The notes beneath the pieces were generated by a model. The model had not been told where the DNA came from. It did no database searches and worked only from the letters and a program-made list of their open reading frames with translations. This document shows positions 13,194-24,611 of a DNA stretch of 64,000 nt, one piece after another (position 1 is the stretch's first letter; every line of letters begins with the position of its first letter). Position numbers and translations under genes: made by a program. This DNA comes from a virus, in the IMG/VR virus record IMGVR_UViG_3300010334_000034, positions 1 through 64,000 of that record. One strand, 5' to 3'.

Positions 13194-13406
13194 TTAAAAA
13201 TTGATATAGATAACAAATCCATCACTATCTACAAATTTACCATTCTCATACTTTATATAATGATAGTTAGTAGGATCTTCCAAATATACATCATCTCCAA
13301 AGGTATGAGGATTTACATACTTCTTTCCATCTCTATCATAGATACCTCTACCAATAGAGAGATGACCTAACTTAACTGCTATCTTCTTAGAATCAATCAT
13401 ACTCAT
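13194..13406 (-). CDS. hypothetical small protein
   Basis: 70 aa (MSMIDSKKIAVKLGHLSIGRG...), beta-rich. Starts at 13406 or at the next Met (13400) are both possible. It overlaps the end of the upstream 58-aa gene. Function unknown. Confidence 0.55.
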   Translation of the reverse strand: MSMIDSKKIAVKLGHLSIGRGIYDRDGKKYVNPHTFGDDVYLEDPTNYHYIKYENGKFVDSDGFVIYINF

Positions 13407-13569
13407 CTTCAAAAGCCTTTTTAAGCTCTCTATTCTCTTTCTTTAATTGCTTATACTTCTCTAAAAGCTTAGTATATTCATAATGAGTAACATAAAAACC
13501 ATAATCATCCTCTACCATATCCGGTTCTCCCCAATCAGCTAATATTGGTTCATAACGAGTAATTTTCAT
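13393..13569 (-). CDS. small coiled-coil early protein
   Basis: 58 aa. The N-terminal half has aromatic and acidic residues (MKITRYEPILADWGEPD) and the C-terminal half is a Lys/Glu coiled coil (LLEKYKQLKKENRELKKAF). A promoter with TTGTTT, 16 bp, TATAAT ends 7 nt before ATG. Not recognised. Confidence 0.65.
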   Translation of the reverse strand: MKITRYEPILADWGEPDMVEDDYGFYVTHYEYTKLLEKYKQLKKENRELKKAFEDEYD

Positions 13570-13576
13570 AGTCTCT

Positions 13577-13604
13577 ATTATAAGAGATCATAAAAGAAAA
13601 ACAA
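13577..13604 (-). promoter_or_regulatory. leaderless early promoter
   Basis: TTGTTT, 16 bp, TATAAT, 7 nt, ATG at 13569. Confidence 0.6.
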
Positions 13605-13637
13605 TAAAAAAAGGACTCCGAAGAGTCCTTTTTCTTT
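13601..13637. terminator. bidirectional intrinsic terminator
   Basis: AAGGACTC-TTCG-GAGTCCTT hairpin with a UUCG tetraloop, with T-runs on both strands. It separates the gene at 13656 from the promoter of the 13393 gene. Confidence 0.85.
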
Positions 13638-13655
13638 ATTAAACTGAAACCTCCT

Positions 13656-14066
13656 CTAATCACCCGAATAAGAACCCGTCTTACTCGCATTACTATAATA
13701 ATCTGATATAGCCTTATTTTTTCTCTTCTCATGCTCAACCTCTCTCAAATCAGCAGGTTCAACATTTTTAATAACTATGGATTTTCTTAATTCATCCTTA
13801 CCACCACTATATCCAGAATCATCTATCTTAGACCAAAAATCATCATCAGAATAAGCAAATTCATGTCGGAGATCCGGCCAACCTCTAGAATGAGAACCAT
13901 AAGACCAACTTATAGCCTTCTTTGTCTTAGGATCATATTTGTAATCAGTTCTATAAAGAATCTCATAGGTATACTTCTTTAATACATTATCTCCATTCTC
14001 TTCGTCCTCTTTCAATACCTTATTAGTATACAGAGACTCTAACATGATTTGATCTTTATTTTTCAT
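13656..14066 (-). CDS. early gene with LESLY N-terminal tag
   Basis: 136 aa. The N-terminus MKNKDQIMLESLYTNKVLKED carries the second tag type found on many late proteins. The body is Tyr/Asp/Ser-rich and unrecognised. It has an early leaderless promoter rather than a late box. Its first 46 bp are duplicated exactly upstream of the next gene (14343-14388). Confidence 0.7.
   Translation of the reverse strand: MKNKDQIMLESLYTNKVLKEDEENGDNVLKKYTYEILYRTDYKYDPKTKKAISWSYGSHSRGWPDLRHEFAYSDDDFWSKIDDSGYSGGKDELRKSIVIKNVEPADLREVEHEKRKNKAISDYYSNASKTGSYSGD
14021..14066. repeat. 46-bp direct repeat, copy 1 (tag coding sequence)
   Basis: Identical to 14343-14388; it encodes the tag from ATGAAAAATAAAGATC to TATACTAATA. 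Confidence 0.9.
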
Positions 14067-14072
14067 ACTATT

Positions 14073-14101
14073 AGTATAAGGGAATTTGATTAGAACTTCA
14101 A
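14073..14101 (-). promoter_or_regulatory. leaderless early promoter
   Basis: TTGAAG, 17 bp, TATACT, AATAGT, ATG at 14066. Confidence 0.75.
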
Positions 14102-14340
14102 GCAGGAAGATCGGTTGTATTGTAAGGACCGAACTTAAAGATATTGTTAACTCGAACGCCAAGTTGACGGCGAGATACATTAAACTCCTTACCCTCACAC
14201 TTGACCCTATAGACAGTATTGCCCATAACCTTCTCCTTTTGACGCTCGATAACTTTACCATACTCCCTGAAGCCCATTACAGAGACCTCCTGGCCAGGGA
14301 AGAGAGCTTTGAGGGCGGGCTTGGTGTTCTTATTTTTCAT
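14098..14340 (-). CDS. hypothetical protein with two possible starts
   Basis: 80 aa from MKNKNTKPALKALFPGQEV at 14340, where TATACTAATAGT abuts the ATG. The frame stays open upstream to a second ATG at 14388 that adds the tag MKNKDQIMLESLYTNS; a late-type box (ATAAGTAATA) precedes that one. The body has a beta-rich, SH3-like look (GYGKVIERQKEK...YRVKCEGKEFNV). The product could therefore exist in tagged and untagged forms. Function unknown. Confidence 0.65.
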   Translation of the reverse strand: MKNKNTKPALKALFPGQEVSVMGFREYGKVIERQKEKVMGNTVYRVKCEGKEFNVSRRQLGVRVNNIFKFGPYNTTDLPA

Positions 14341-14342
14341 AC

Positions 14343-14388
14343 TATTAGTATACAGAGACTCTAACATGATTTGATCTTTATTTTTCAT
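14343..14388. repeat. 46-bp direct repeat, copy 2
   Basis: Exact copy of 14021-14066. Here the tag runs in frame into the next ATG through TATACTAATAGT, so the -10 box of the downstream start is tag coding sequence. Confidence 0.9.
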
Positions 14389-14521
14389 ATAAAATATATT
14401 ATTACTTATATAAGGGAATAGCAATTTAATACTTTGGCGATTTAATACCAGGGTACCCCCCTATATACGCGGGATTGCCCCCCGGCCGTTTCTGCTTGCT
14501 ATTCCCCTATTAACAAATTTG

Positions 14522-14608
14522 AACGTCCGGGGTCCTAGCATACCGCGGTCGGTAGTATTACCCCTGGTCGCTATTAAGACCGGTAGGTATCCGACCGCGG
14601 TCGTTAAG
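14522..14608. other. GC-rich intergenic region with imperfect palindromes
   Basis: The 185-bp gap holds ACCGCGGTCGGTA and GACCGCGGTCGTTAAG, about 50 bp apart, plus AAGACCGG. These resemble the GACCGGTCGTTA iterons at 24.94-25.02 kb with two extra central bases. Possibly operator sites. Short frames here look spurious. Confidence 0.4.
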
Positions 14609-14609
14609 C

Positions 14610-14912
14610 TTAGGCGGCGACCACTGGGACGATGTGGAAGGTGTACTTGGCGTTGCGCAAGGCCTTCTCTTTGTCGGCCTCGGCATTGTACTTGGCAGCG
14701 TCCGTGCACCAGCTACCCACGTAGCCGAAGCTGTAGCCGCAGGAGGAGGCGGAGGCCTTGCCCTGGCGCTTGATGGTCCAGCGGTAGGCTCCCGTGGCGT
14801 TGGTCTCCTTGTTGATGGCGACGTGGCACTCGACCAGCGGGCGCGTGGAGGTGACGCTGAGGACGTCTCCGTTAGGGGCTGTGGCGGTGTATTGGGTCTT
14901 CTTATTTTTCAT
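14610..14912 (-). CDS. array gene: hypothetical protein
   Basis: 100 aa, N-terminus MKNKKTQYTATAPNGDV. It is GC-rich and beta-rich in the first half, helical at the end, with two Cys. Leaderless promoter directly upstream. No recognised family. Confidence 0.7.
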   Translation of the reverse strand: MKNKKTQYTATAPNGDVLSVTSTRPLVECHVAINKETNATGAYRWTIKRQGKASASSCGYSFGYVGSWCTDAAKYNAEADKEKALRNAKYTFHIVPVVAA

Positions 14913-14918
14913 ACTATA

Positions 14919-14947
14919 AGTATAACCTATAATGGGGGAAAGGTCAA
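14919..14947 (-). promoter_or_regulatory. leaderless early promoter
   Basis: TTGACC, spacer starting TTTCCCCC (17 bp), TATACT, TATAGT, ATG at 14912. Confidence 0.85.
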
Positions 14948-14951
14948 CCCC

Positions 14952-15173
14952 TTAGCGCCAGGTGCCTACTAGCTTGAGCTGCTCCTCTGTAGCGAGGGTA
15001 ACAACCTCCCAGGAAGCGAGAGGGAAGGAGCCGTACCTGGACTGGTACTCTGGCTGGCCTCCCGCTGGCGTTGTGCAGATGCCGAACTCATCGACCTTGG
15101 TGACGCGGTGGACACGATCGGTGTTGGAGTTGAGGGTGACGATGGAACCTACTTCGATGTTCTTATTTTTCAT
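14952..15173 (-). CDS. array gene: small SH3-like hypothetical protein
   Basis: 73 aa (MKNKNIEVGSIVTLNSN...). The beta pattern and the opening VGSIVTL suggest an SH3-like barrel, by eye only. It has its own promoter with TATAAT 6 nt before the ATG, but the -35 is poor (CTTTCT). Confidence 0.65.
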   Translation of the reverse strand: MKNKNIEVGSIVTLNSNTDRVHRVTKVDEFGICTTPAGGQPEYQSRYGSFPLASWEVVTLATEEQLKLVGTWR

Positions 15174-15179
15174 ACTATT

Positions 15180-15209
15180 ATTATATAATGGTTATGGGGG
15201 AAAAGAAAG
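15180..15209 (-). promoter_or_regulatory. leaderless early promoter, weak -35
   Basis: CTTTCT, TTTCCCCC-type spacer (about 18 bp), TATAAT, AATAGT, ATG at 15173. Confidence 0.55.
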
Positions 15210-15210
15210 T

Positions 15211-15441
15211 CTAAAGGAGCTCCACTTTGGTCCTGTGATTGAAGGTGACACACTGGCCTGGTACTGTTGGGTAGGTAGCCTCCGGGTTGATTGATGGAAC
15301 TACCACGATGATCTTAGCTGAGCGGTAGGCTGGGTTCCGGGCCTGAGGCCAGTACGGGTTGGCGCACTCATAGATGCCGCTGTTGCCGTACTTGAATCGC
15401 TGACCTTTCTTTAACTCTCCAATGGTGATCTTATTGTTCAT
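15211..15441 (-). CDS. array gene: hypothetical protein
   Basis: 76 aa from MNNKITIGELKKGQRFKYG, beta-rich. The start is fixed by TATAAT-type sequence 6 nt upstream; in-frame codons further upstream lie inside the promoter. Function unknown. Confidence 0.68.
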   Translation of the reverse strand: MNNKITIGELKKGQRFKYGNSGIYECANPYWPQARNPAYRSAKIIVVVPSINPEATYPTVPGQCVTFNHRTKVELL

Positions 15442-15447
15442 ACTATT

Positions 15448-15476
15448 ATTATCTATCAAGTAAGGGGGAAAGCCAA
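15448..15476 (-). promoter_or_regulatory. leaderless early promoter
   Basis: TTGGCT, TTCCCCC-type 17-bp spacer, GATAAT, AATAGT, ATG at 15441. Confidence 0.7.
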
Positions 15477-15479
15477 GCC

Positions 15480-15845
15480 TTAAAGGGGGAGTCCTACCCC
15501 CAGTGGCTTGTACTCGGAACTCACCAGCTCCTTGAGAGCGTTTCGATGAGCCTCTTCTTCCTTCTCGAACCAGGCGCGCTGCTCGTCGTCGTAGTCATAG
15601 TAGGAGTTCTTACGAGCCTCCTTGGCCTCGATGAGGTCCTCCTGGTGCTCGTACTCGGCGATGTCCGCGTAGCCGCTGCGGTAGGGGGTGAGGCCCATGA
15701 TGTCCTCGAGGGTGTAGCTGGCCACGGCGAACCACTGGATCTTGGGGTTGGCCTCGCACTCCTCGGTGAAGGTTACCTCGCGCGTGAGGAGGTATCCGGC
15801 GAGTTCGATTTGGGCTTCGGTGGGTGTGGTGTTCTCAATTTTCAT
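15480..15845 (-). CDS. array gene: acidic helical protein
   Basis: 121 aa (MKIENTTPTEAQIELAGYLL...), very acidic and Tyr-rich in the C-terminal half (YYDYDDEQRAWFEKEEEAHR). Such small acidic proteins are often DNA-mimic or host-takeover candidates, but nothing specific is recognised. Own leaderless promoter. Confidence 0.7.
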   Translation of the reverse strand: MKIENTTPTEAQIELAGYLLTREVTFTEECEANPKIQWFAVASYTLEDIMGLTPYRSGYADIAEYEHQEDLIEAKEARKNSYYDYDDEQRAWFEKEEEAHRNALKELVSSEYKPLGVGLPL

Positions 15846-15851
15846 ACTATT

Positions 15852-15880
15852 ATTATAATCTCTTTATGGGGGAAAGACAA
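15852..15880 (-). promoter_or_regulatory. leaderless early promoter
   Basis: TTGTCT, TTCCCCC-type 17-bp spacer, TATAAT, AATAGT, ATG at 15845. The -35 abuts the T-tract of the terminator upstream. Confidence 0.8.
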
Positions 15881-15883
15881 TAC

Positions 15884-15917
15884 AAAAAGGGAGGAGGCCC
15901 ACCACAGACCTCCTCCC
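15884..15917 (-). terminator. intrinsic terminator
   Basis: GGGAGGAGG...CCTCCTCCC stem followed by TTTTTG on the minus strand. It ends the three-gene operon 16583-15946 immediately before the next promoter. Confidence 0.85.
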
Positions 15918-15945
15918 TTACCCCACCGCGGGTATGAAAATGATA

Positions 15946-16185
15946 TTAGCTCTTATCTACCATGGCTAGGAGAGCTTCATCTGTAATGAACCTCTGCTCT
16001 AGGTGCCTAAGCTCTTCTTCCATGGCCTCTAGCATTTGGCCTCCTACCCAGTCTGCGAAGCGTCCTGGCTTCTCAATCCAAGGTGAGTCTGGGCGATGAG
16101 TTGCTGCTCTATAGAGCTTCTCTAGCTTGTTGGTTCCGTCCATCAGCTCTTCTAGGACTTCGTAGGCTTTGGTTTCGATCTTCAT
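15946..16185 (-). CDS. array operon gene: helical protein
   Basis: 79 aa, helical and charged (MKIETKAYEVLEELMDG...). Third gene of a short operon; its ATG is one base after the previous TAA (TAATATG). Function unknown. Confidence 0.65.
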   Translation of the reverse strand: MKIETKAYEVLEELMDGTNKLEKLYRAATHRPDSPWIEKPGRFADWVGGQMLEAMEEELRHLEQRFITDEALLAMVDKS

Positions 16186-16186
16186 A

Positions 16187-16339
16187 TTAGTCGTTGTTGT
16201 TGGTGATTCTCTCGTAGAGGTCTGCTGCTAACATTAGGGCGTCTTTGATTTCGTATTCGAGGACAGAGAGCTTGTCTAAACTCTTCTCCAGCTTCTCGAT
16301 GACTAACTTCAGTTGATAATCTTTAGGAGGTTGTTCCAT
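16187..16339 (-). CDS. array operon gene: small coiled-coil protein
   Basis: 50 aa (MEQPPKDYQLKLVIEKL...), one long amphipathic helix. ATG at 16339 follows the upstream TAA by one base. A longer upstream frame overlaps the previous gene and is rejected. Confidence 0.6.
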   Translation of the reverse strand: MEQPPKDYQLKLVIEKLEKSLDKLSVLEYEIKDALMLAADLYERITNNND

Positions 16340-16340
16340 A

Positions 16341-16583
16341 TTAGGCGTGGGTGGCAAAGGCTTCGTCGAGGATCTCCAGGCTCTTCTCGGTGTTGGTAAG
16401 CTCCTTGAGAGCCCTCTCATGCATCTGGATCCTTCCGAGGAGTCCCATACGAGCATAGACGTTGGAGGTTAGTTGGAAGTCCTTCTCGAGGTTCGCCAGA
16501 GCCTCCTGGATGCGGACCGTGCCGAGGGCCTTGATGGAGTCGATGATTTCCTGATACTGTTGGTGGATGTTCTTATTTTTCAT
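16341..16583 (-). CDS. array operon gene: helical protein
   Basis: 80 aa (MKNKNIHQQYQEIIDSIKAL...), helical throughout. First gene of the operon, with a leaderless promoter. Function unknown. Confidence 0.68.
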   Translation of the reverse strand: MKNKNIHQQYQEIIDSIKALGTVRIQEALANLEKDFQLTSNVYARMGLLGRIQMHERALKELTNTEKSLEILDEAFATHA

Positions 16584-16589
16584 ACTATT

Positions 16590-16618
16590 ATTATATTATG
16601 TTTAGGTGGGAATCTCAA
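16590..16618 (-). promoter_or_regulatory. leaderless early promoter
   Basis: TTGAGA, TTCCCACC-type 17-bp spacer, TATAAT, AATAGT, ATG at 16583. Confidence 0.85.
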
Positions 16619-16935
16619 GCTGCAACTCCCAGGGTTACATTCTCTGGGAGTACGTGGGTGATGCTCTCTGGGTAGATATCGGCGGGAACGTGGTTCCAGG
16701 TGAACTGGGTGCAGCCCTGTTCCATTCCCATCTCGAAGCGATACTCGTGGATGGTGATGATGTCTTTCTGGACCAGGGAGCTGAGGACTCCGCGCGCGAC
16801 CTTCATGTCGACGCCTTCGTAGTCGCTGAGGTTCTCGATGATGCCGAAGTCGTGGCCGTTGCCCTCGGCGTCCTTGAACAGGAGGGTGAGGATTTGGGTT
16901 TCGAGCTCGGTCAGTGTGGTGTTCTTATTTTTCAT
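16615..16935 (-). CDS. array gene: winged-helix-like protein
   Basis: 106 aa. Residues about 8-65 (LTELETQILTLLFKDA...VARGVLSSLVQKDIITIHEYRFE) have the helix-helix-helix-wing pattern of MarR/winged-helix DNA-binding domains. It may be an early transcription regulator; the fold is assigned by pattern only. It starts at 16935 behind its own promoter. Confidence 0.65.
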   Translation of the reverse strand: MKNKNTTLTELETQILTLLFKDAEGNGHDFGIIENLSDYEGVDMKVARGVLSSLVQKDIITIHEYRFEMGMEQGCTQFTWNHVPADIYPESITHVLPENVTLGVAA

Positions 16936-16941
16936 ACTCTT

Positions 16942-16970
16942 AGTATAAAGCATTTAGGGAGAAACCTCAA
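16942..16970 (-). promoter_or_regulatory. leaderless early promoter
   Basis: TTGAGG, TTTCTCCC-type 17-bp spacer, TATACT, AAGAGT, ATG at 16935. Confidence 0.85.
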
Positions 16971-17178
16971 CACTATTGCTGCATACAAAGTCCTGAATGG
17001 TCTCGAAGAGAGCCGGTGCTTCGATTGCGTATCCGTCTTCGGTACGAATGAAGCTATCGACTATCCTATCATTCTCGTTGTACACATCAGTGTAAATGGC
17101 TGTTCCGAAGTTAGGTACGTCCTCGACTACATAGGACACGTGCTTAAGTTTCTCTTTAGTGGAAGCTGTGATTTTCAT
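16954..17178 (-). CDS. array gene: hypothetical acidic protein
   Basis: 74 aa (MKITASTKEKLKHVSYVVED...), acidic, mixed alpha/beta. It has no clear promoter of its own and lies 20 nt downstream of the 17198 gene, so it is probably co-transcribed. Unknown function. Confidence 0.65.
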   Translation of the reverse strand: MKITASTKEKLKHVSYVVEDVPNFGTAIYTDVYNENDRIVDSFIRTEDGYAIEAPALFETIQDFVCSNSVEVSP

Positions 17179-17197
17179 ATTAGGTAGGTGTTAGGTG

Positions 17198-17470
17198 TTA
17201 CTTGATGCCTTTGGCTTTGAGTTCTTTAGCGAAGGCGTCATCCATTTTCTTCTGGGTCTCCGCTGGGTCTTGGAAGGGTGCTTGCGCGTAGCTAACATCG
17301 TTCCAGTGGAAGCTTACATTACCCCAGCTGCTTGCCTCGTACGTTGCGGCATTGTGAACCACGGCGAGGTGCTGATAGTAGGCAGCGGTGAGGCCGGCGC
17401 TTGCTGCACTGAAGGCCAGAGCAACGAAGCCGAACGTGAGGAGGTCTATAACGTATTGTTTAATTTTCAT
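17198..17470 (-). CDS. array gene: membrane-anchored or exported protein
   Basis: 90 aa. The first about 30 residues (MKIKQYVIDLLTFGFVALAFSAASAG) form a signal-anchor-like hydrophobic helix; the rest is polar. It could act in the host envelope, for example in superinfection exclusion, but that is a guess from topology. Confidence 0.68.
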   Translation of the reverse strand: MKIKQYVIDLLTFGFVALAFSAASAGLTAAYYQHLAVVHNAATYEASSWGNVSFHWNDVSYAQAPFQDPAETQKKMDDAFAKELKAKGIK

Positions 17471-17476
17471 ACTATT

Positions 17477-17505
17477 ATTATATTGGGTTTAGGTGGGAAA
17501 GACAA
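17477..17505 (-). promoter_or_regulatory. leaderless early promoter
   Basis: TTGTCT, TTCCCACC-type 17-bp spacer, TATAAT, AATAGT, ATG at 17470. Confidence 0.85.
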
Positions 17506-17507
17506 TC

Positions 17508-17828
17508 TTAAAGGCCAAGACCCTCGAAGTCATTGTCCATGGTAACATCGCAGAAGATCTGCTTACTATAGAGATGCTTTACTACGAAGCCAGGCGAGCA
17601 ACCGCAAGAGCAACCTGCCTTCTGGCTCCAGCTGAACTTATGGTCTGCCATATTGAGACCTACTGCTGCGCATACTTCAGGTATAAGTGCGCGAAACTCT
17701 TTTATAGGGCGTTTACGGCGCATAGCGAGGTTGTCTATGATGGTCTCTCCAACCGGGAAGAAGTAGAGGACGGACTTCGTGGTACGCTTTTCATTGCTCC
17801 ACTGCATACGTGCATTCTTAATTTTCAT
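17508..17828 (-). CDS. array gene: Cys-containing basic protein
   Basis: 106 aa, basic N-terminal half, and a CSCGCSP cluster at about residue 73 that could bind metal with other Cys residues. Unrecognised. Own promoter. Confidence 0.68.
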   Translation of the reverse strand: MKIKNARMQWSNEKRTTKSVLYFFPVGETIIDNLAMRRKRPIKEFRALIPEVCAAVGLNMADHKFSWSQKAGCSCGCSPGFVVKHLYSKQIFCDVTMDNDFEGLGL

Positions 17829-17834
17829 ACTATT

Positions 17835-17863
17835 ATTATATGAGGTTTAGGTGGGAATTTCAA
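17835..17863 (-). promoter_or_regulatory. leaderless early promoter
   Basis: TTGAAA, TTCCCACC-type 17-bp spacer, TATAAT, AATAGT, ATG at 17828. Confidence 0.85.
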
Positions 17864-17866
17864 TCC

Positions 17867-18091
17867 TTATCGGCTACGGACAAGGTCCAACCCATGTCGG
17901 ACAATCTCGTCGAATCCGCCGTAGCTGTTGTAGAGGTCGACGATCTGGCAGTTCACGTCCGAGCTTCCGATCTCCTCGACGCCCCACTCCTTGAGCTCCA
18001 TCACCGCGGTGTTGCGGACCATCTGCTTGAACATCTGGTCCAGGGCCTTGTACTCGTTCATGATCTCTTCGAATGTGTTCTTATTTTTCAT
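17867..18091 (-). CDS. array gene: helical protein
   Basis: 74 aa (MKNKNTFEEIMNEYKALDQM...), helical. Not recognised. Own promoter. Confidence 0.68.
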   Translation of the reverse strand: MKNKNTFEEIMNEYKALDQMFKQMVRNTAVMELKEWGVEEIGSSDVNCQIVDLYNSYGGFDEIVRHGLDLVRSR

Positions 18092-18097
18092 ACATTT

Positions 18098-18126
18098 ATT
18101 ATCTAGGATTTATGGGGGAAAATCAA
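18098..18126 (-). promoter_or_regulatory. leaderless early promoter
   Basis: TTGATT, TTCCCCC-type 17-bp spacer, GATAAT, AAATGT, ATG at 18091. Confidence 0.75.
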
Positions 18127-18275
18127 ATCGATTCGCCCCTCTCAAGACCTTTGATGACGTGCAACCAGGACTCCCTCCAGGCCTGGTGCTTCGGTCCCTG
18201 CATGGCCGGCTGGCTGATCATGCGGCGGATGTTCTTGATGACTGTGGTGGCTTTGACGGTGTTCTTATTTTTCAT
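18123..18275 (-). CDS. array gene: small basic protein
   Basis: 50 aa (MKNKNTVKATTVIKNIRRMI...), basic and helical. It starts at 18275 where TATACTAAGAGT abuts the ATG; upstream in-frame codons are promoter sequence. Function unknown. Confidence 0.62.
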   Translation of the reverse strand: MKNKNTVKATTVIKNIRRMISQPAMQGPKHQAWRESWLHVIKGLERGESI

Positions 18276-18281
18276 ACTCTT

Positions 18282-18325
18282 AGTATAAAGAGATTTGGGG
18301 GGAAAGACCACCACAATCTTTCCCC
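18282..18325. promoter_or_regulatory. promoter overlapped by an 11-bp inverted repeat
   Basis: TATACT lies 6 nt before the ATG at 18275, with a poor -35 (TGGTCT). The spacer and -35 form one arm of GGGGGGAAAGA...TCTTTCCCCCC. The repeat could be an operator, or a terminator of the upstream gene, though no T-tract follows on the minus strand. Confidence 0.5.
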
Positions 18326-18715: not shown

Positions 18716-18886
18716 TTAGACGAGGTATGCTGAGGCTGGGTTCTTGAGGACTTCGAGAAGATCGAAGAGGACCTCTTTGTTGTTGTTGGTGACGTTAACC
18801 AGATCTTTGATCTGGGCCTTGAGGGTAGCGATCTCCTGGTGGAGCGCTTCGATCTCTGCTGCAACTGCACTGTTGTTATTTTTCAT
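18716..18886 (-). CDS. array gene: small coiled-coil protein
   Basis: 56 aa (MKNNNSAVAAEIEALHQEIA...), a classic heptad coiled coil. Leaderless-type promoter upstream with a weak -35. Function unknown. Confidence 0.65.
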   Translation of the reverse strand: MKNNNSAVAAEIEALHQEIATLKAQIKDLVNVTNNNKEVLFDLLEVLKNPASAYLV

Positions 18887-18892
18887 ACTATT

Positions 18893-18921
18893 AGTATCAA
18901 TCATTTAGTGGGAAAATTCAC
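18893..18921 (-). promoter_or_regulatory. leaderless early promoter, weak
   Basis: GTGAAT, TTTCCCAC-type 17-bp spacer, GATACT, AATAGT, ATG at 18886. Confidence 0.55.
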
Positions 18922-19118: not shown

Positions 19119-19124
19119 ATAGAG

Positions 19125-19380: not shown

Positions 19381-19386
19381 AAAAAG

Positions 19387-19477
19387 TACTGGGTATCGGA
19401 ATCGAACCGATGCTCGTCCCTCATCTAGGGATTCACAGATATAAGCTGTGCGATGCTTCCAATTACATTAACCCAGT
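19387..19477 (-). tRNA. class II tRNA with anticodon TAT (identity uncertain)
   Basis: 91 nt: acceptor ACTGGGT/ACCCAGT, discriminator A, a three-pair D-stem (ATG/CAT), anticodon stem CACAG/CTGTG around CTTATAT, a long variable arm (TCCCT-AGATG-AGGGA plus five bases) and T-arm ATCGG-TTCGATT-CCGAT. A long variable arm normally marks Leu, Ser or Tyr tRNAs, but the anticodon TAT reads the Ile codon ATA. Either the identity is unusual or the loop is recoded. Confidence 0.75.
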
Positions 19478-19501
19478 GTTGATGGTTGCCGAGACTTACC
19501 T

Positions 19502-19720
19502 TTAGGAGGCAGAGGTCTCGGTGAGGGAGAACTGACCGCGTGCCGTCTTAGTGGCGCACGTACGAAGGTGACGATAAACCTTACGGTAATCGGCCTTGAT
19601 GGTCAGCTGCTCGCCTGCAATAGTCTCTTGTACTTTAGTAAGGATATCCTTTACGGACAACTCCTGCTCTGCGGTCAAGATATTACGAATTAGATCCGTG
19701 AGTGTGACTTTAGTTTGCAT
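19502..19720 (-). CDS. hypothetical helical protein
   Basis: 72 aa from MQTKVTLTDLIRNILTAEQE, helical, possibly HTH-like (LSVKDILTKVQ...KVYRHLRT). Its start overlaps the end of the 55-aa gene in another frame. A longer upstream frame is rejected. Confidence 0.6.
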   Translation of the reverse strand: MQTKVTLTDLIRNILTAEQELSVKDILTKVQETIAGEQLTIKADYRKVYRHLRTCATKTARGQFSLTETSAS

Positions 19721-19877
19721 ATTGAGTAACGCCGGCCTTTGTATTATTGTCCTGAGGCTGTCGGCCGGCATTAACGGCATCAGGGTTCGTTGAAGACTTC
19801 TTGACTGCTTCGAGGATAATATCCTTCAAAGCTTCTTTACTCTTTGGTAACTTGCCAGGTGAGAATTCGATGATCAT
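19710..19877 (-). CDS. small hypothetical protein
   Basis: 55 aa (MIIEFSPGKLPKSKEALKDI...), helical N-terminal half and a polar, disordered-looking tail. It has a promoter of the array type and overlaps the next gene by 11 nt. Not recognised. Confidence 0.6.
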   Translation of the reverse strand: MIIEFSPGKLPKSKEALKDIILEAVKKSSTNPDAVNAGRQPQDNNTKAGVTQYAN

Positions 19878-19886
19878 ATTATTATT

Positions 19887-19915
19887 ATTATACTCCTGTT
19901 AGTGGGAAAGTGCAA
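19887..19915 (-). promoter_or_regulatory. early promoter, 9-nt gap to ATG
   Basis: TTGCAC, TTTCCCAC-type 17-bp spacer, TATAAT, AATAATAAT, ATG at 19877. Confidence 0.7.
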
Positions 19916-20120
19916 CACCCATTTCTTCTTTAAAGTCTTCAATACAACTGTTAATCATAGTGAGAGCTTCTCCAATGGTCTGTCCCTCCCACCATACGTC
20001 ATCGATATTGATAATGTCTGGAAGGTCACTGAAGCTGACTCCAAGCTTATTATGACAATGAAGATTCAAAGCTCGGCGGAATTCGGAACGAGTCACTGGA
20101 GGGTCTTTAGGCCAGATCAT
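19899..20120 (-). CDS. hypothetical protein
   Basis: 73 aa (MIWPKDPPVTRSEFRRALNL...), mixed alpha/beta, acidic C-terminus. It starts one base after the TAA of the 47-aa gene. Function unknown. Confidence 0.65.
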   Translation of the reverse strand: MIWPKDPPVTRSEFRRALNLHCHNKLGVSFSDLPDIINIDDVWWEGQTIGEALTMINSCIEDFKEEMGVALSH

Positions 20121-20121
20121 G

Positions 20122-20265
20122 TTACTTCTTTACGTTGTAGTCGCTAAGACGATTGGTACGATAAAGATCCTGAAGCCAGGTGCCGTGAGTGACGTCACAC
20201 ATATGCATGAGGAGGAGTGAAGGCTTACGTTGAGTAAACCCTAAGAGGTGTAGGAGGTGTTTCAT
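20122..20265 (-). CDS. small basic hypothetical protein
   Basis: 47 aa (MKHLLHLLGFTQRKPSLLLM...). Supported by an array-type promoter and by tight spacing to the next gene. Not recognised. Confidence 0.6.
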   Translation of the reverse strand: MKHLLHLLGFTQRKPSLLLMHMCDVTHGTWLQDLYRTNRLSDYNVKK

Positions 20266-20274
20266 TGTTTATAT

Positions 20275-20301
20275 ATTATAGCAATTGGTGGGAAAGGTCA
20301 A
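20275..20301 (-). promoter_or_regulatory. early promoter
   Basis: TTGACC followed by a TTTCCCACC-type spacer; TATAAT at 15-bp spacing or TAATAT at 17 bp; ATG at 20265 lies 7-9 nt beyond. Confidence 0.65.
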
Positions 20302-20312
20302 TCTTAAAGTGG

Positions 20313-20385
20313 TACCTGTGATCGGATTCGAACCGATACTGGAGCGATTTTAAGTCGCTTGTCTCTGCCGTTGGACTACACAGGC
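20313..20385 (-). tRNA. class I tRNA with anticodon TAA (nominally Leu)
   Basis: 73-nt cloverleaf: acceptor GCCTGTG/CACAGGT, anticodon stem AGCGA/TCGCT around CTTAAAA, short variable loop CCAGT, T-arm ATCGG-TTCGAAT-CCGAT. TAA reads Leu TTA, yet leucine tRNAs are normally class II with a long variable arm. Confidence 0.82.
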
Positions 20386-20393
20386 ATAAAGGG

Positions 20394-20645
20394 TTAGAGG
20401 GTTACGAAGTATACTCCAGCTATAAGAAGGAGAGCCTTGTACTCTGGATCGTCTTGACGATCGCTATCAATGATTCCTTCTAGGAGATCATTATCTACAC
20501 TCATGTGTATAACCTTCGATCCGTGATTAAGAAGAAGATCTGTACGGATCTGACTATCACTCATATCAGGATAGGTTAGCTTGTAATCAGCGAGAAGTGC
20601 TTCGCCGGCCATTTCAATTTTGCGATACAGGTTTGAATCAATCAT
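20394..20645 (-). CDS. hypothetical helical protein
   Basis: 83 aa (MIDSNLYRKIEMAGEALLAD...), acidic and helical, ending YKALLLIAGVYFVTL. Possible distant paralog of 7898-8128. Own leaderless promoter with consensus TTGACA. Confidence 0.65.
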   Translation of the reverse strand: MIDSNLYRKIEMAGEALLADYKLTYPDMSDSQIRTDLLLNHGSKVIHMSVDNDLLEGIIDSDRQDDPEYKALLLIAGVYFVTL

Positions 20646-20651
20646 GTATAT

Positions 20652-20680
20652 ATAATAAAGGATTAAGGGGGAAATGTCAA
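20652..20680 (-). promoter_or_regulatory. leaderless early promoter
   Basis: TTGACA, TTTCCCCC-type 17-bp spacer, TATTAT, ATATAC, ATG at 20645. Confidence 0.85.
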
Positions 20681-20693
20681 TCTAAAAAGAAAG

Positions 20694-20771
20694 AAAAAGG
20701 TCTAGTGTGTTCAATGAGGAATAAAAACTTCCCGAGCAGGCTCTCCCTGCAATCTATTCACTAGACCCTTA
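20694..20771 (-). terminator. long structured terminator
   Basis: A nine-pair outer stem GGTCTAGTG/CACTAGACC followed by TTTTTC encloses a second hairpin GCAGG-gagag-CCTGC. It is unusually large (about 75 nt) for a simple terminator. It ends the 21226-20776 operon. Confidence 0.7.
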
Positions 20772-20775
20772 ATCT

Positions 20776-21012
20776 TTAGCGGCTGCGGCGGCGAGCAGTG
20801 AAGCGGCCCTGCTTGTTACGCACGTTGTGAAAACGTGGGCGAAGCATGACGTTATTACTGCGTCCAACGAGACCGAGAATCTCATAGCGACTCTCATTGA
20901 TGCTCTCAGAGATCAGCTCAAGCTTTGCTGCCTTGCCTGTACGGCTGGAGACAGTGCGGCCAGTGAGATCACTGATATTGCGAACGATCGTATTAGCGAT
21001 TGTTTTTGTCAT
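20776..21012 (-). CDS. small basic protein
   Basis: 78 aa, Arg-rich C-terminus (NKQGRFTARRRSR), likely nucleic-acid binding. It is preceded by GGAAAACAACAACAATG, one of the few places with a purine-rich stretch before a start. It overlaps the upstream gene by 20 nt. Confidence 0.65.
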   Translation of the reverse strand: MTKTIANTIVRNISDLTGRTVSSRTGKAAKLELISESINESRYEILGLVGRSNNVMLRPRFHNVRNKQGRFTARRRSR

Positions 21013-21226
21013 TGTTGTTGTTTTCCTTTCTTTCGTTTGTTGCGAAATTCTTTTTCTTACTAGTCTTAGGAACCTTATCTAGTACAATAAGCTTGTTGAA
21101 CTTGAAGTCCTTTACCATCTGCTCCCAGTCCGCTGTAGCTATTGCCTTCGGTCGGTTCTTTACCCAAGTAGGTACTTGGTAGATAGGTCCTGTCTTTAAA
21201 ACTCTCTTTGATTGCCATACGTGCAT
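20993..21226 (-). CDS. small basic protein
   Basis: 77 aa (MHVWQSKRVLKTGPIYQVPT...), with a Lys/Asn-rich tail. Promoter TTGATA, 16 bp, TATTAT, TTTAAT, ATG. Not recognised. Confidence 0.63.
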   Translation of the reverse strand: MHVWQSKRVLKTGPIYQVPTWVKNRPKAIATADWEQMVKDFKFNKLIVLDKVPKTSKKKNFATNERKENNNNDKNNR

Positions 21227-21232
21227 ATTAAA

Positions 21233-21260
21233 ATAATACTATAGGTTAAACGTTTATCAA
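21233..21260 (-). promoter_or_regulatory. leaderless early promoter
   Basis: TTGATA, 16 bp, TATTAT, TTTAAT, ATG at 21226. Lacks the TTTCCC spacer start. Confidence 0.6.
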
Positions 21261-21928
21261 GCGGCTTTCGTTACTGCCCTCTTGAATTTCCTTGGGCGAT
21301 TGTCTGGAATACGATTGATATCCTTAATTGGACAAGCACAATTCTTCTGTAGAACACACTCGGCGCATCCGAGATTGAGGAAGATGTCTGGGCGCCAGCA
21401 TGCCATGGCTGTTACCTGGGAACACGTCTCCTTGTCCTTAACCAAATCGATTTCCTGGGTTTGGTAGTTAGGATCCATCTTAGGAAGGGTCTTACGAACC
21501 TCCTCCTTACGAGCTTCCCACTCTTCCGGGGAAAGGAATACCTTTTCCTTTTCTACCTTTACCTTAGGCTCTTTAGGCTCCTTCAACTTGATAGCCTCTT
21601 TGTCCAGGGAACGACATACGCGACACTTGAACTCGGTAAGGAGTTTCCGGGTATCCCCGTTATACTTTGCCAGGTAATTCGCTAGCTGGTTACCAAACAT
21701 GGAAACCGTATTATGCCGGCATTCAGAACAGGTAATCTTATTATGTGGGAACTTCTTAGTTCCCTGGAAAGTCTTTACCCAGGTATCAATTCCTAGGTAT
21801 TCAAACTGGTCTGCCTTGTTGATACGCTCGTTCTTGGGAATACGTTTCCGGGAAACCTTTACTGGTACCCGGGAATCAGCGATGGCTTGTTTCCTGGAAA
21901 TCTTCTTTTGCTTGTTCTTATTTTTCAT
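21257..21928 (-). CDS. zinc-ribbon-like early protein
   Basis: 223 aa, the largest gene of the array. The basic N-terminus (MKNKNKQKKISRKQA) is followed by CSEC at about residue 67 and CRVC about 35 residues later, a four-Cys zinc ribbon. A Lys/Glu helix and a second Cys group (CAECVLQKNCAC) follow. Probably a nucleic-acid or protein-binding factor. Strong leaderless promoter. Confidence 0.72.
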   Translation of the reverse strand: MKNKNKQKKISRKQAIADSRVPVKVSRKRIPKNERINKADQFEYLGIDTWVKTFQGTKKFPHNKITCSECRHNTVSMFGNQLANYLAKYNGDTRKLLTEFKCRVCRSLDKEAIKLKEPKEPKVKVEKEKVFLSPEEWEARKEEVRKTLPKMDPNYQTQEIDLVKDKETCSQVTAMACWRPDIFLNLGCAECVLQKNCACPIKDINRIPDNRPRKFKRAVTKAA

Positions 21929-21934
21929 ACTATT

Positions 21935-21963
21935 AGTATAACGGATTACCGGGGAAAAGTCAA
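21935..21963 (-). promoter_or_regulatory. leaderless early promoter
   Basis: TTGACT, TTTCCCC-type 17-bp spacer, TATACT, AATAGT, ATG at 21928. Confidence 0.87.
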
Positions 21964-21970
21964 CCCCCAA

Positions 21971-22162
21971 TTAGTGTGGATATTCGATTAGTAGAATGAG
22001 ATCATCCTCTTTGATGTCGTCATAAGGCACATCTTTATGCGCTGTACGCGCGCTAAACACGTGATAAATCGCGTTATCGTGCATAGACTCGAGCTTTACA
22101 GGATCATCCAGATGCTCTGCGTATTTCTCTTGGAGATGGGCGATTAGTTTCCTATAGGTCAT
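21971..22162 (-). CDS. array operon gene: hypothetical
   Basis: 63 aa (MTYRKLIAHLQEKYAEHLDD...), acidic C-terminus. It starts at a TAATATG junction with the gene upstream. Unknown function. Confidence 0.63.
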   Translation of the reverse strand: MTYRKLIAHLQEKYAEHLDDPVKLESMHDNAIYHVFSARTAHKDVPYDDIKEDDLILLIEYPH

Positions 22163-22163
22163 A

Positions 22164-22403
22164 TTAGATGGCTTCCTTGGTTTTGTTTGCGTGGTAGTCT
22201 TTGTGAACTCTCAAGAAGAGTAATTCGATCTCTTCGTTAATATCTGCAAGCTTAGCGAGGCGAGAGGCTCCATTAAGAGCTTCTGTATCAAGCTGCTTAC
22301 CAATCAGCTCTAAGGTCTCTACCATACCTTCAATGGTATAAAAGAGATGTATAGAGCGTTCTTCTTCCGACATGATGGAGAACTGATATGCTTTATTTTT
22401 CAT
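22164..22403 (-). CDS. array gene: helical protein
   Basis: 79 aa (MKNKAYQFSIMSEEERSIHL...), all-helical. First gene of a two-gene operon with the best-matching promoter of the array. Not recognised. Confidence 0.68.
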   Translation of the reverse strand: MKNKAYQFSIMSEEERSIHLFYTIEGMVETLELIGKQLDTEALNGASRLAKLADINEEIELLFLRVHKDYHANKTKEAI

Positions 22404-22409
22404 ACTCTT

Positions 22410-22438
22410 AGTATAAAGGATTTAGGGGGAAAGGTCAA
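22410..22438 (-). promoter_or_regulatory. leaderless early promoter
   Basis: TTGACC, TTTCCCCC-type 17-bp spacer, TATACT, AAGAGT, ATG at 22403. Confidence 0.9.
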
Positions 22439-22441
22439 CCT

Positions 22442-22885
22442 CTAAGAACCCCAATCGATCTCGAAGACTCGGACTCCGTCTTTAGGTTCCATCTCGGTAA
22501 AGCCCTCGAGGAAGAGGCAAGCGGTGCTACCATCCTCTTGATCAATCAACTGGCGATTACATTCGCTAATGATCTCCCTCCAGCTTGGGTGTTCCATTAC
22601 TTCGCTGTAGACCTCTTTATCAGAGATCCTCCAGTAATCGCTATAGAAGACGCACTTACCTTCGAATACGGCGCCCTCATCAAAGATATCTGGGTGATTG
22701 ACAATCCAGTCTCCACTATCCAGACCCTTATCCAAGGTCTTATTTGTCTCAAAGATAGAGAAGGTAAGACCTACATTGCCTTCGCGACTACGGTCTTTAC
22801 AACGGCCTTCTACGGCCTTCTGGAGGCTATTATAGGAGGAGGTGGCGGTGAGCTCTAGGAGCGGTGAGGTGGCTTTCTTATTCAT
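22442..22885 (-). CDS. array gene: hypothetical protein
   Basis: 147 aa (MNKKATSPLLELTATSSYNS...), acidic, mixed alpha/beta, with several Trp and Cys. GATAAT lies 7 nt before the ATG but no clear -35 is seen. Function unknown. Confidence 0.68.
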   Translation of the reverse strand: MNKKATSPLLELTATSSYNSLQKAVEGRCKDRSREGNVGLTFSIFETNKTLDKGLDSGDWIVNHPDIFDEGAVFEGKCVFYSDYWRISDKEVYSEVMEHPSWREIISECNRQLIDQEDGSTACLFLEGFTEMEPKDGVRVFEIDWGS

Positions 22886-22904
22886 ATATATTATTATCTA
22901 GGGT

Positions 22905-23105
22905 TTAGGTGGTAACGGCACTCTCTTCTTCTCTGTTAATGTAATACTGCCGGCTCCTCCAGGTCTCGTCCCAGTCATCGCTGAGGGTAGTATATTGCAC
23001 CTGAAGGTCCTTAATCATCTGCTCGACGAACTTCTTCTGGGCGTCAAGGCGGATGAGGCGGTGGTTGTGGGTGGTGATGATCTCGTCGTGGTCTTTATTT
23101 TTCAT
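22905..23105 (-). CDS. array gene: helical protein
   Basis: 66 aa (MKNKDHDEIITTHNHRLIRL...), long helix with a charged C-terminus. The start MKNKDHDEI is close to the tag start MKNKDQI but lacks the L-x-E-A-Y part. Own promoter. Confidence 0.66.
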   Translation of the reverse strand: MKNKDHDEIITTHNHRLIRLDAQKKFVEQMIKDLQVQYTTLSDDWDETWRSRQYYINREEESAVTT

Positions 23106-23111
23106 ACTATT

Positions 23112-23140
23112 AGTATAATGGGTTTAGGGGGAAATCTCAA
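23112..23140 (-). promoter_or_regulatory. leaderless early promoter
   Basis: TTGAGA, TTTCCCCC-type 17-bp spacer, TATACT, AATAGT, ATG at 23105. Confidence 0.87.
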
Positions 23141-23475
23141 GCCAAATCGCTTACTGGGATCCTACGAGCATTCTGATAGCGCTCGTTGTAATCGCTAATG
23201 CTAATACCGCCAGGCCACTCCATAATGTAGTCATCTTTCTCTCCCATATCATTGACGTGGCGAACCCACTTAACAGGCTCAACCTTTGCAAACGCGTTAC
23301 GGAGGCGAGTATCAAGCATTCGAACAGGCTTCATCCACTTAGGCTCACTCTCGAACATGCCGGTATAGTAAGGCTTGTACCAATAGACGTAGTCATAGAC
23401 TCGCTGGATCTGGCCATCAATCTTCATCAGAGTGAAGGCCTTGCTGCCCTTGAGGCGGTAGATGTAGGCTCCCAT
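23137..23475 (-). CDS. array operon gene: Tyr/Trp-rich protein
   Basis: 112 aa from MGAYIYRLKGSKAFTLMKID. A very aromatic central part (YVYWYKPYYTGMF) suggests a compact beta fold. It starts at a TAATATG junction after the 61-aa gene. Not recognised. Confidence 0.66.
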   Translation of the reverse strand: MGAYIYRLKGSKAFTLMKIDGQIQRVYDYVYWYKPYYTGMFESEPKWMKPVRMLDTRLRNAFAKVEPVKWVRHVNDMGEKDDYIMEWPGGISISDYNERYQNARRIPVSDLA

Positions 23476-23476
23476 A

Positions 23477-23662
23477 TTAGGCGTTGGTATTGGGGTTGAG
23501 GTGGTGGTTGATGTAACTATCGATGGTCTGCTGCGCGGTCCCACTATACTCATAGGTGAGACCATCGAGCATGGCCATCAGGGTTCCGATGATGTAGTCC
23601 GGGGACTTGCCCGTGGACTCCAGGTGGGTGACGATATCCTTTACGGTGTTCTTATTTTTCAT
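23477..23662 (-). CDS. array gene with a recurring small helical domain
   Basis: 61 aa. GKSPDYIIGTLMAML...TIDSYINHH matches segments in 27202-27384 (KKSPEYIIEILVNIL) and in the acidic late protein 9392-10219 (ESSDYVTGYLMSMI). This defines a small domain of about 45 residues used alone and as part of a larger protein. Role unknown. Confidence 0.68.
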   Translation of the reverse strand: MKNKNTVKDIVTHLESTGKSPDYIIGTLMAMLDGLTYEYSGTAQQTIDSYINHHLNPNTNA

Positions 23663-23668
23663 ACTTTA

Positions 23669-23697
23669 AGTATAAAGGGTTTAGTGGGAAAACTCAA
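23669..23697 (-). promoter_or_regulatory. leaderless early promoter
   Basis: TTGAGT, TTTCCCAC-type 17-bp spacer, TATACT, TAAAGT, ATG at 23662. Confidence 0.85.
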
Positions 23698-23715
23698 GAA
23701 CCAAATGTGATAGGG

Positions 23716-23829
23716 TTATTCGTTTGTAGGTGCAGGTACTGGGGGAGCTATCACAGGCTCTGGGAACTTAGGAGGCTCCGGAGTAGGGGGTAACTCACCA
23801 GTCGGATGCTTGGTAGTATCTTCGATCAT
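23716..23829 (-). CDS. proline-rich micro-protein
   Basis: 37 aa; the second half is almost half proline (LPPTPEPPKFPEPVIAPPVP). It starts 8 nt after the upstream stop. Small and low-complexity, so only moderately supported. Confidence 0.5.
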   Translation of the reverse strand: MIEDTTKHPTGELPPTPEPPKFPEPVIAPPVPAPTNE

Positions 23830-23837
23830 ATATCTAT

Positions 23838-24086
23838 TTAGTATCCCATGGCTCCTTTGAGATCCTCTAGAAAGGTAGTGAAGTCAAGATGGAGGCACTC
23901 CTCACTCAAACGCTCTTGAATCTCAGGATCCTCGCTCTCTAGAACGGCTTTAACGTGAGAATCATCTAGGTATTGCTGAAGCTTCTCCAAGGCATCGTAG
24001 ACATCGCTTCGATACATATGGTAGTTACCAATGATGTAGTCGAGGCCCTTGGGATCTGTATTGATGGTGTATTCTTTATTTTTCAT
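23838..24086 (-). CDS. array gene: acidic helical protein
   Basis: 82 aa (MKNKEYTINTDPKGLDYIIG...), acidic and helical. LDYIIGNYHMYR echoes the s-x-DYI-x-G segment of the recurring small domain, weakly. Own promoter. Confidence 0.67.
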   Translation of the reverse strand: MKNKEYTINTDPKGLDYIIGNYHMYRSDVYDALEKLQQYLDDSHVKAVLESEDPEIQERLSEECLHLDFTTFLEDLKGAMGY

Positions 24087-24092
24087 ACTATT

Positions 24093-24121
24093 AGTATATA
24101 GGTTTTAGGGGGAAAGATCAA
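24093..24121 (-). promoter_or_regulatory. leaderless early promoter
   Basis: TTGATC, TTTCCCCC-type 17-bp spacer, TATACT, AATAGT, ATG at 24086. Confidence 0.87.
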
Positions 24122-24357
24122 GCGAATACCTCGGCGGCTGTAATATACTCAGCCTGGGCAATACCTTGCTCCCTAAGCTGTTTAATAAGGCTCGCCGCGG
24201 TGTTAATATCTATGACCTGGACATAGGAGCTATTATAGCCCTGGAAGGTCAATTCTACTACCGTTCTATTCTTATCATCATATTGATGGACGCCTGTGCG
24301 AACACTAACGCCTTCCATGATCGATCCGTTGATGGGGTACTTGTTTTTATTTTTCAT
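24118..24357 (-). CDS. array gene: hypothetical protein
   Basis: 79 aa (MKNKNKYPINGSIMEGVSVR...), beta-rich first half and helical end. Not recognised. Own promoter. Confidence 0.67.
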   Translation of the reverse strand: MKNKNKYPINGSIMEGVSVRTGVHQYDDKNRTVVELTFQGYNSSYVQVIDINTAASLIKQLREQGIAQAEYITAAEVFA

Positions 24358-24363
24358 ACTCTT

Positions 24364-24392
24364 AGTATATAGGTTATTGTGGGAAAACTCAA
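24364..24392 (-). promoter_or_regulatory. leaderless early promoter
   Basis: TTGAGT, TTTCCCAC-type 17-bp spacer, TATACT, AAGAGT, ATG at 24357. Confidence 0.85.
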
Positions 24393-24396
24393 GATC

Positions 24397-24576
24397 TTAA
24401 TAGGCAGCGTGGGTCTTCCAAAGATCCCTCATCTCCCTCCTAAACATCTGATAGGTCTTCTTGTTCTCGGGAACTGGAGTGAAGTTAGCCATCTTCTCAT
24501 AGTACTCCTCCAGGGTCTTAGCGGCCTTCATCACGTTCTCGTAATACTCGTCTACTGTGGTGTTGTTATTTTTCAT
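24397..24576 (-). CDS. array gene: small helical protein (first of the array)
   Basis: 59 aa (MKNNNTTVDEYYENVMKAAK...), all-helical. TATAAT ends 6 nt before the ATG; the -35 is weak (TTTTCT). Function unknown. The array starts here; about 1.08 kb without genes lies upstream. Confidence 0.65.
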   Translation of the reverse strand: MKNNNTTVDEYYENVMKAAKTLEEYYEKMANFTPVPENKKTYQMFRREMRDLWKTHAAY

Positions 24577-24582
24577 GCCCTT

Positions 24583-24611
24583 ATTATAATAGGGATTGTA
24601 GGAAAAGAAAA
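24583..24611 (-). promoter_or_regulatory. leaderless early promoter, weak -35
   Basis: TTTTCT, TTTCCTAC-type 17-bp spacer, TATAAT, AAGGGC, ATG at 24576. Confidence 0.65.

Follow-up and report, generated by a model that had tools for sequence, protein, structure and literature searches.

How are genes read that follow one another so closely that little more than a promoter fits between them? The question is raised by a block of small orphan genes on the minus strand, at positions 13393–24611 of a 64,000-nt stretch of viral DNA (the window; bases 1–64000 of the 106,787-base IMG/VR record IMGVR_UViG_3300010334_000034, labelled G000). The G+C content of this block is 0.44–0.50 as compared with ~0.33 around it, and the gaps between its genes are mostly 31–42 nt, the length of one copy of a recurrent cassette that carries a TTG-type −35, a TTYCCC box and a −10 ending 6 nt before the ATG. 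We consider it likely, from the sequence comparisons described below, that these cassettes are three-element promoters of leaderless mRNAs and that they belong to a habit common to a whole clade of phages.

Judged from its gene content, G000 is a fragment of an uncultured T4-like phage. We observed T4-like portal, major head protein, protease, clamp loader, neck and baseplate genes, and both the gp20, gp23 and gp21-like head genes and the T4-type replication genes (phrog_213, 138, 207 and 168) place it in this group; amino acid identity to its closest relatives in culture, most of them cyanophages, is only ~30–36%. A portal search of IMG/VR gave 74 related loci. The clade set used here consists of ten genomes, G000 and nine related records (G002, G003, G010, G012, G013, G018, G021, G022 and G025), several of which are fragments; their gene starts were assigned with simple rules for open reading frames (ORFs). 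G002 (111.6 kb, portal identity 86%) is a sister phage of G000, G003 has a portal identity of 85%, and G010 (227 kb) is a more diverged relative at 69%. A close portal match (95% identical) was found in one Chitinophagaceae metagenome-assembled genome bin. A Bacteroidota host would fit this match and the missing Shine-Dalgarno signal described below, but not the Bacteroidetes-type TAnnTTTG element at −7, for which no enrichment upstream of genes was seen.

The promoter cassette at the start codon

A search for TTYCCC-N11-TATAMT-N6-ATG with at most one mismatch gave 21 matches in the window, all on the minus strand, whereas dinucleotide-shuffled sequences gave a mean of 0.07 and a maximum of 1. 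This confirmed the recurrence of the cassette before minus-strand ATGs, which a sequence-only reading of the window had described. The motif search that this reading had proposed for the whole genome and related phages was also run: a profile trained on the motif, with a threshold set for ~0.5 false hits per genome, found 26 cassettes in G000 (most of them within the window), 27 in G002 and, in diverged form, 41 in G010. When all viral contigs were scanned, the exact G000 cassette matched G002 only, and the G010 form matched G010 itself and two further contigs.

In G000 and G002, TTGACA-like and TATAAT-like hexamers lie 17 bp apart, and the proposed sigma-70-like −35/−10 pair is borne out by the statistics; only KKG is left of the −35 in G010. 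Comparison of ten orthologous G000/G002 sites (ungapped, with sums made by hand) showed 296/350 identical positions from −35 to −1 (85%), against 128/250 from −60 to −36 (51%) and 78% identity from +16 to +40.

The spacing to the start codon was obtained from a promoter scan that makes no use of the ATG. Among the 25 G000 sites with an ORF ATG within 30 nt, the −10 ends 6 nt before the ATG in 21, 7 nt in two, 9 nt in one and 15 nt in one; in the same scan, exactly 6 nt was found at 13/18 such box promoters of G002 and 37/50 of G010, so that a −10 ending ~6 nt before the ATG is common to all three genomes. The earlier statement that the distance is exactly 6 nt therefore holds for most sites, with exceptions at the starts 19877 (9 nt; box promoter 19875–19915, ORF 19710–19877), 20265 (7 nt; box promoter 20263–20301, ORF 20122–20265), and 22885 and 13569, which have 7 nt and no full box. 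At 14340 and 21226 the 6-nt spacing is kept and the box is absent. Over the ten genomes, 4–27 TTG/TANNNT pairs per genome stand at the leaderless distance, while a control shifted 10 nt upstream gave 0–3. The copies at 13155, 20645, 29017 and 32030, which had been listed as isolated examples of the cassette, do exist; their form, TATTAT ATATA[C/G] ATG, sets them apart as a second sub-class.

The element at the start of the spacer had been thought as strongly conserved as the −35. It is indeed an additional conserved element, and in fact a stronger one: we calculated 9.0 bits for the box against 5.3 for the −35 and 7.2 for the −10 in G000, and 11.0 against 5.6 and 7.0 bits, respectively, in G010 (information sums made by hand, from seeds that contained the box). 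Leaderless TTG/TANNNT sites chosen without regard to the box still carry it in 15/19 cases in G000, 9/19 in G002 and 19/27 in G010. In G012 the distance from box to −10 is a constant 11 nt while that from −10 to ATG varies from 6 to 10 nt, and because the former holds despite the latter, the box is, on this evidence, part of the promoter and not of the start codon. Its consensus is TTYCCC and not that of a TTTGCTTTA-like MotA box.

We also observed several features that bear on the position of the transcription start. The base at −1 is a pyrimidine in 24/26 cassettes of G000 (p = 1e-5), 25/27 of G002 (p = 2e-6) and 41/41 of G010 (p = 6e-14), as compared with ~50% at other ORF ATGs; a pyrimidine followed by a purine (YR) at −1/+1 is the usual start preference. 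In G010, where the ATG has slipped downstream by 1–3 nt at some sites, a C|A step is kept at positions 6|7 after the −10 (CTTAAC|AATG, ATATAC|AAGATG, TATTAC|AAGATG), and this group of sites separates the start-site signal from the start codon. From the fixed spacing, the −1 pyrimidine and the C|A step kept in G010, the transcript most likely begins at the A of the ATG. The earlier prediction that +1 lies at or next to this base is in agreement with these statistics. The prediction of a leaderless start stands for most sites; a few would have a leader of 1–3 nt, one (at 39346) has an apparent long leader, and some would drive an apparently non-coding RNA.

The letters that follow the ATG also appear to be under selection. 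In G000, codons 2–5 are typically AAA AAT AAR AAC: codon 2 has AAA and AAG in a ratio of 20:1, the reverse of the preference for AAG inside the same genes (64:133; p = 2.5e-9), and codon 3 has AAT and AAC in a ratio of 17:0 (p = 2e-5). The first 35 nt are nearly unstructured, with a mean of −0.6 kcal/mol against −4.7 kcal/mol in gene bodies. Both the codon bias and the low structure would fit a requirement that the 5′ end be open and rich in A, but the shared ancestry of the copies may have contributed to them. In G010, a second ATG occupies codon 2 in 21/41 cassettes, against a background of 2.6%, and this ATGATG start would keep a 5′ AUG despite a 3-nt slip.

Translation signals and late-type genes across the clade

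The sequence-only reading had stated that these transcripts lack a Shine-Dalgarno sequence. This holds, but it is not special to the array genes, as hardly any enrichment of the motif is seen over the genome as a whole. Shine-Dalgarno 4-mers precede 19–24% of the genes of G000, G002 and G010 and 16–17% of internal ATGs, that is, genome-wide the motif is at or slightly above background, whereas the same count in T4 gave 71%. The sequence upstream of starts is A-rich across the clade generally.

A second motif pointed in the same direction. In the ten clade genomes, TAAATA or TAAGTA starts 11–13 nt before the ATG in 19–44 genes per genome, where 1–2 are expected; in G000 the count at −11 to −13 is 25 against 0.9 expected, and the genes concerned include tail, baseplate and neck genes. 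Examples on the minus strand are TAAATA at 56807–56818, starting 12 nt before the ATG of a large virion-region gene (ORF 53342–56806), and TAAATA at 61950–61961, also 12 nt before the ATG (ORF 60633–61949). In T4 and the cyanophage P-SSM2, by contrast, TAAATA is found 15–59 nt upstream and none was seen at 11–13 nt. A homologue of the late sigma factor gp55 (phrog_234) is present in 8/10 genomes, the G000 and G002 fragments being the two without it, so the clade combines a TATAAATA-like −10 at a fixed distance with gp55 in most members. In T4, TAAATA occupies −11 to −6; with this spacing, late transcripts of the clade would start 0–2 nt from the ATG. Because the Shine-Dalgarno signal is weak everywhere and the late motifs lie 11–13 nt before the ATG, leaderless or near-leaderless expression looks genome-wide and not confined to the array. 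In this respect the view of the leaderless spacing as a property of an early cassette did not survive, since the T4-late-type motifs have it too.

The clade also carries a phage transfer-messenger RNA (tmRNA). In the window it lies at 2267–2704 on the minus strand (Rfam RF00023, 92 bits; not detected by ARAGORN in G000), and it is present in G002, G003, G010, G018 and G021 as well, that is, in at least 6/10 clade genomes; the tag read from G010 and G018 is ATDNTEALLAEATHIINNFEDYLAEEEMYELAA.

Proposed mechanism and alternatives

We propose that the cassette is a complete 35-bp promoter, in which a TTG-type −35 is followed by the TTYCCC box (−29 to −24) and a TANNNT −10 (−12 to −7). Firing at the A of the ATG, it would give an mRNA that begins with 5′-AUG. 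This terminal AUG would be recognized by leaderless initiation, probably by 70S ribosomes, with the help of the A-rich, unstructured start, and the second genes of several units would be translated by stop–start coupling. The TTYCCC box would be recognized specifically, most likely by a DNA-binding activator or a sigma-appropriating factor placed at about the position that MotA takes on T4 middle promoters. On this view the array would be one case of the clade-wide habit, in which late mRNAs would start ~0–2 nt from the ATG. The type of the array genes suggests that they are expressed early. We advance only tentatively the fullest form of this proposal, in which essentially every promoter class, sigma-70-type as well as gp55-type, is leaderless or near-leaderless, a new non-MotA sigma-appropriating factor reads TTYCCC, and tmRNA supports translation.

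Several observations weigh against this proposal. The 6–10 nt between −10 and ATG in G012 indicate that a strict zero leader is not universal, and the box promoter at 39346 (39300–39374, minus strand) precedes a 269-aa gene (38491–39300) by an apparent leader of ~40 nt; this leader is A-rich and without a clear Shine-Dalgarno sequence. Within a genome the cassettes are in part duplicates of one another, so that the separate events are fewer than the 26 or 41 sites counted, and the independent evidence amounts to three or four phages. The information values of the box are somewhat inflated by the seeds that contained it. Finally, no homologue of MotA (PF09114) or AsiA (PF09010) was detected in the ten genomes, several of them incomplete (the MotA model detects T4, a positive control; the AsiA search had none), and our search for a binder of the box identified none.

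One candidate for such a binder was considered. A 118-aa protein (4847–5203, minus strand) and its 75-aa neighbour are the only pair outside the array that occurs in exactly the four box-array phages and is absent from the six others. It was rejected for now: five further phage fragments carry the protein without a clear set of box promoters, its model is all-helical without a fold match, and in G000 the 75-aa neighbour has a late-type motif. Nine other phage contigs carry relatives of the protein, with 68–87% identity to it.

Could the host polymerase suffice? The cassettes might be plain, strong host sigma-70 promoters, leaderless by chance, in which the host polymerase or sigma reads TTYCCC as an added part of the −35, with no additional protein. 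The 17-bp spacing and near-consensus −35 and −10 of G000 are as expected of such promoters, a truly early promoter has to work at a time when no phage protein has been made, and the other clade phages have a few leaderless TTG/TANNNT pairs without a box. In G010, however, the box hardly varies although the −35 has decayed to KKG, the reverse of the pattern expected for an auxiliary extension, and the genome in the Chitinophagaceae bin has no such site, although its link to a host is weak. We regard this explanation as doubtful, though it is the most serious competitor of our proposal.

It is rather improbable that the box is instead the operator of a repressor that shuts off early genes in the early-to-late switch. 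A site between −35 and −10 is a classic position for a repressor, and in part of the array a palindrome, ATACTAATAGTAT, spans the −10 and the start. This palindrome is broken in the TATAAT versions and absent in G010, and we consider it likely to be incidental; the combination of a strong box with a weak −35 in G010 fits activation better than repression.

The repeated 50-bp unit could also serve mainly as a recombination linker that shuffles small genes, with the promoter features inherited as passengers. At G002 site 87490, the promoter is 33/35 identical to that of the G000 cassette at 24576, but the gene behind it is the orthologue of another G000 gene; the G000/G002 pairs 16583/94085 and 15441/94862 have the cassette in common and share little beyond ~+15. 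In G000 itself, the gene start seen at 14066 (MKNKDQIMLESLYTN) occurs in a second copy within 14322–14424, where it meets a cassette at letters that both have in common, TATACTAATA; the resulting chimeric start, at 14340–14424, looks like a recombination joint. From the promoter/gene mismatches between G000 and G002, the cassette may therefore double as a joint for gene exchange. As its main role we find this very improbable: G010 retains the architecture with a different sequence, as do isolated single copies far from the array with their own, and use as a linker is compatible with use as a promoter. Least probable of all are ordinary leaders from promoters further upstream, with the −10-like element an AT-rich ribosome signal, which the general A-richness upstream of clade starts might suggest, since the 31–42 nt gaps leave room for the cassette only, the −35, box and −10 keep their 17-bp spacing at sites without an ORF as well, and a YR preference exists at −1/+1.

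The three-element leaderless promoter that we favour has partial parallels in known systems. Leaderless mRNAs are usually regarded as exceptions in phages. The Thermus phage phiYS40 is, like the phages here, a large phage with leaderless mRNAs; most of its middle and late mRNAs are of this kind, and host translation is said to shift, with IF2 up and IF3 down (PMC3594737). In phiYS40 the leaderless classes are the middle and late ones, whereas in the present clade the sigma-70-type array and the late-type genes both look leaderless. We used a 35-kb stretch of phiYS40 as a positive control for a −12 peak and found none; in this stretch Shine-Dalgarno 4-mers occur at 67% of starts and there is one possible box, and perhaps the annotated starts or the gene class differ. 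In Deinococcus-Thermus, a TANNNT element a few bp upstream of the ORF, at a specific spacing and with an optional −35, gives leaderless mRNA (PMC12340547), which is the same −10-adjacent architecture; those genes are cellular, and the passages of that report considered here mention no TTYCCC box, while the present cassettes belong to T4-like phages.

The layout of a phage-specific box upstream of a −10 is shared with T4 itself. At T4 middle promoters the MotA box lies near −30 to −25, ~11–12 bp upstream of a sigma-70 −10. The clade cassettes differ in the sequence of the box, in a −35 that is partly kept, in being leaderless and in that no MotA or AsiA was found. With T4 late promoters (TATAAATA, gp55), the clade has the TAAATA core and a gp55 homologue in common, but its late motif stands 11–13 nt before the ATG and not 15–59 nt as in T4 and P-SSM2, and TAAGTA is also common. 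Our literature search, mostly outside subscription journals, turned up neither a TTYCCC box nor a T4-like lineage whose early and late classes are both leaderless. Leaderless phage mRNAs are known from phiYS40; what looks new is the box, as does the early-plus-late design in T4-like phages.

The two promoter classes of an entire T4-like lineage seem to have been remodelled around the start codon. Its dozens of matched natural promoters could be used to learn how start-site choice by the polymerase is tied to translation of a 5′ AUG, and they predict that some factor, of the phage or of the host, reads TTYCCC. In such phages, starts will be badly placed by gene finders that give weight to Shine-Dalgarno sites.

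The small-gene array and its surroundings

The array proteins had no informative Pfam or PHROG matches and almost no protein family matches at all. From its upstream end, the array begins with a cassette of the form TTTTCT TTTCCT N11 TATAAT AAGGGC ATG at 24574–24611 (ORF 24397–24576), followed, likewise on the minus strand, by those at 24355–24392 (ORF 24118–24357), 24084–24121 (ORF 23838–24086), 23103–23140 (ORF 22905–23105), 18884–18921 (ORF 18716–18886), 18273–18310 (ORF 18123–18275), 17468–17505 (ORF 17198–17470), 16933–16970 (ORF 16615–16935), 15439–15476 (ORF 15211–15441), 15171–15208 (ORF 14952–15173) and 14910–14947 (ORF 14610–14912), all found by both the motif and the profile search. 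Two more, at 18089–18126 (ORF 17867–18091) and 17826–17863 (ORF 17508–17828), were found by the same searches and also entered the G000/G002 comparison.

In several units the second gene begins 1 nt past a stop (TAATATG). The cassette at 23660–23697 (ORF 23477–23662) is followed by a second gene, 23137–23475, after 1 nt; that at 22401–22438 (ORF 22164–22403) by 21971–22162; and that at 16581–16618 (ORF 16341–16583) by 16187–16339 and 15946–16185, with 1-nt gaps. The cassette at 21926–21963 drives the 223-aa ORF 21257–21928, and the corresponding G002 promoter has the TATTAT ATATAC form. This sub-class is represented in G000 at 20643–20680 (ORF 20394–20645) and 13153–13190 (ORF 12748–13155). 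A copy with a degenerate box, found by the profile search, is at 14064–14101 (ORF 13656–14066). Isolated cassettes on the same strand are located at 29015–29052 (ORF 28619–29017; profile search) and 32028–32065 (ORF 31404–32030), the latter also present in G002 and G003.

The cassette at 15843–15880 (ORF 15480–15845) comes directly after a strong terminator-like hairpin at 15887–15919. Only three strong hairpins exist in the array region, where terminator-like sites are no commoner than in shuffled sequences, and private terminators are thus not general.

Beyond the upstream end of the array, the ATG-free scan found five box promoters without a downstream ORF in a non-coding stretch at 24.6–25.1 kb: 24635–24663, 24778–24806, 24887–24915 and 25067–25095 on the plus strand and 24842–24870 on the minus strand. 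They could possibly produce small RNAs. The convergent pair 24778–24806 and 24842–24870 is 35 bp apart and is conserved in G002. Four palindromic repeats of the TAACGACCGGTCGTTA kind lie in the same region (24937–25020), and related CCGCGGTCGG/ACCGGT palindromes are found at the opposite end of the array (14530–14605); these palindromes are possible origin, partition or operator sites.

Within the array, a long (92-nt) tRNA-Ile gene with the anticodon UAU is located at 19386–19477 on the minus strand, and similar genes occur in G002, G010, G012, G013 and G021. Bacteria normally read AUA with a CAU tRNA, and a UAU tRNA-Ile is unusual. QueC-like and glutamine-amidotransferase-like genes lie close together at 14755–16781 of locus L010 (record positions 97255–99281), perhaps for a 7-deazaguanine modification of DNA or tRNA.

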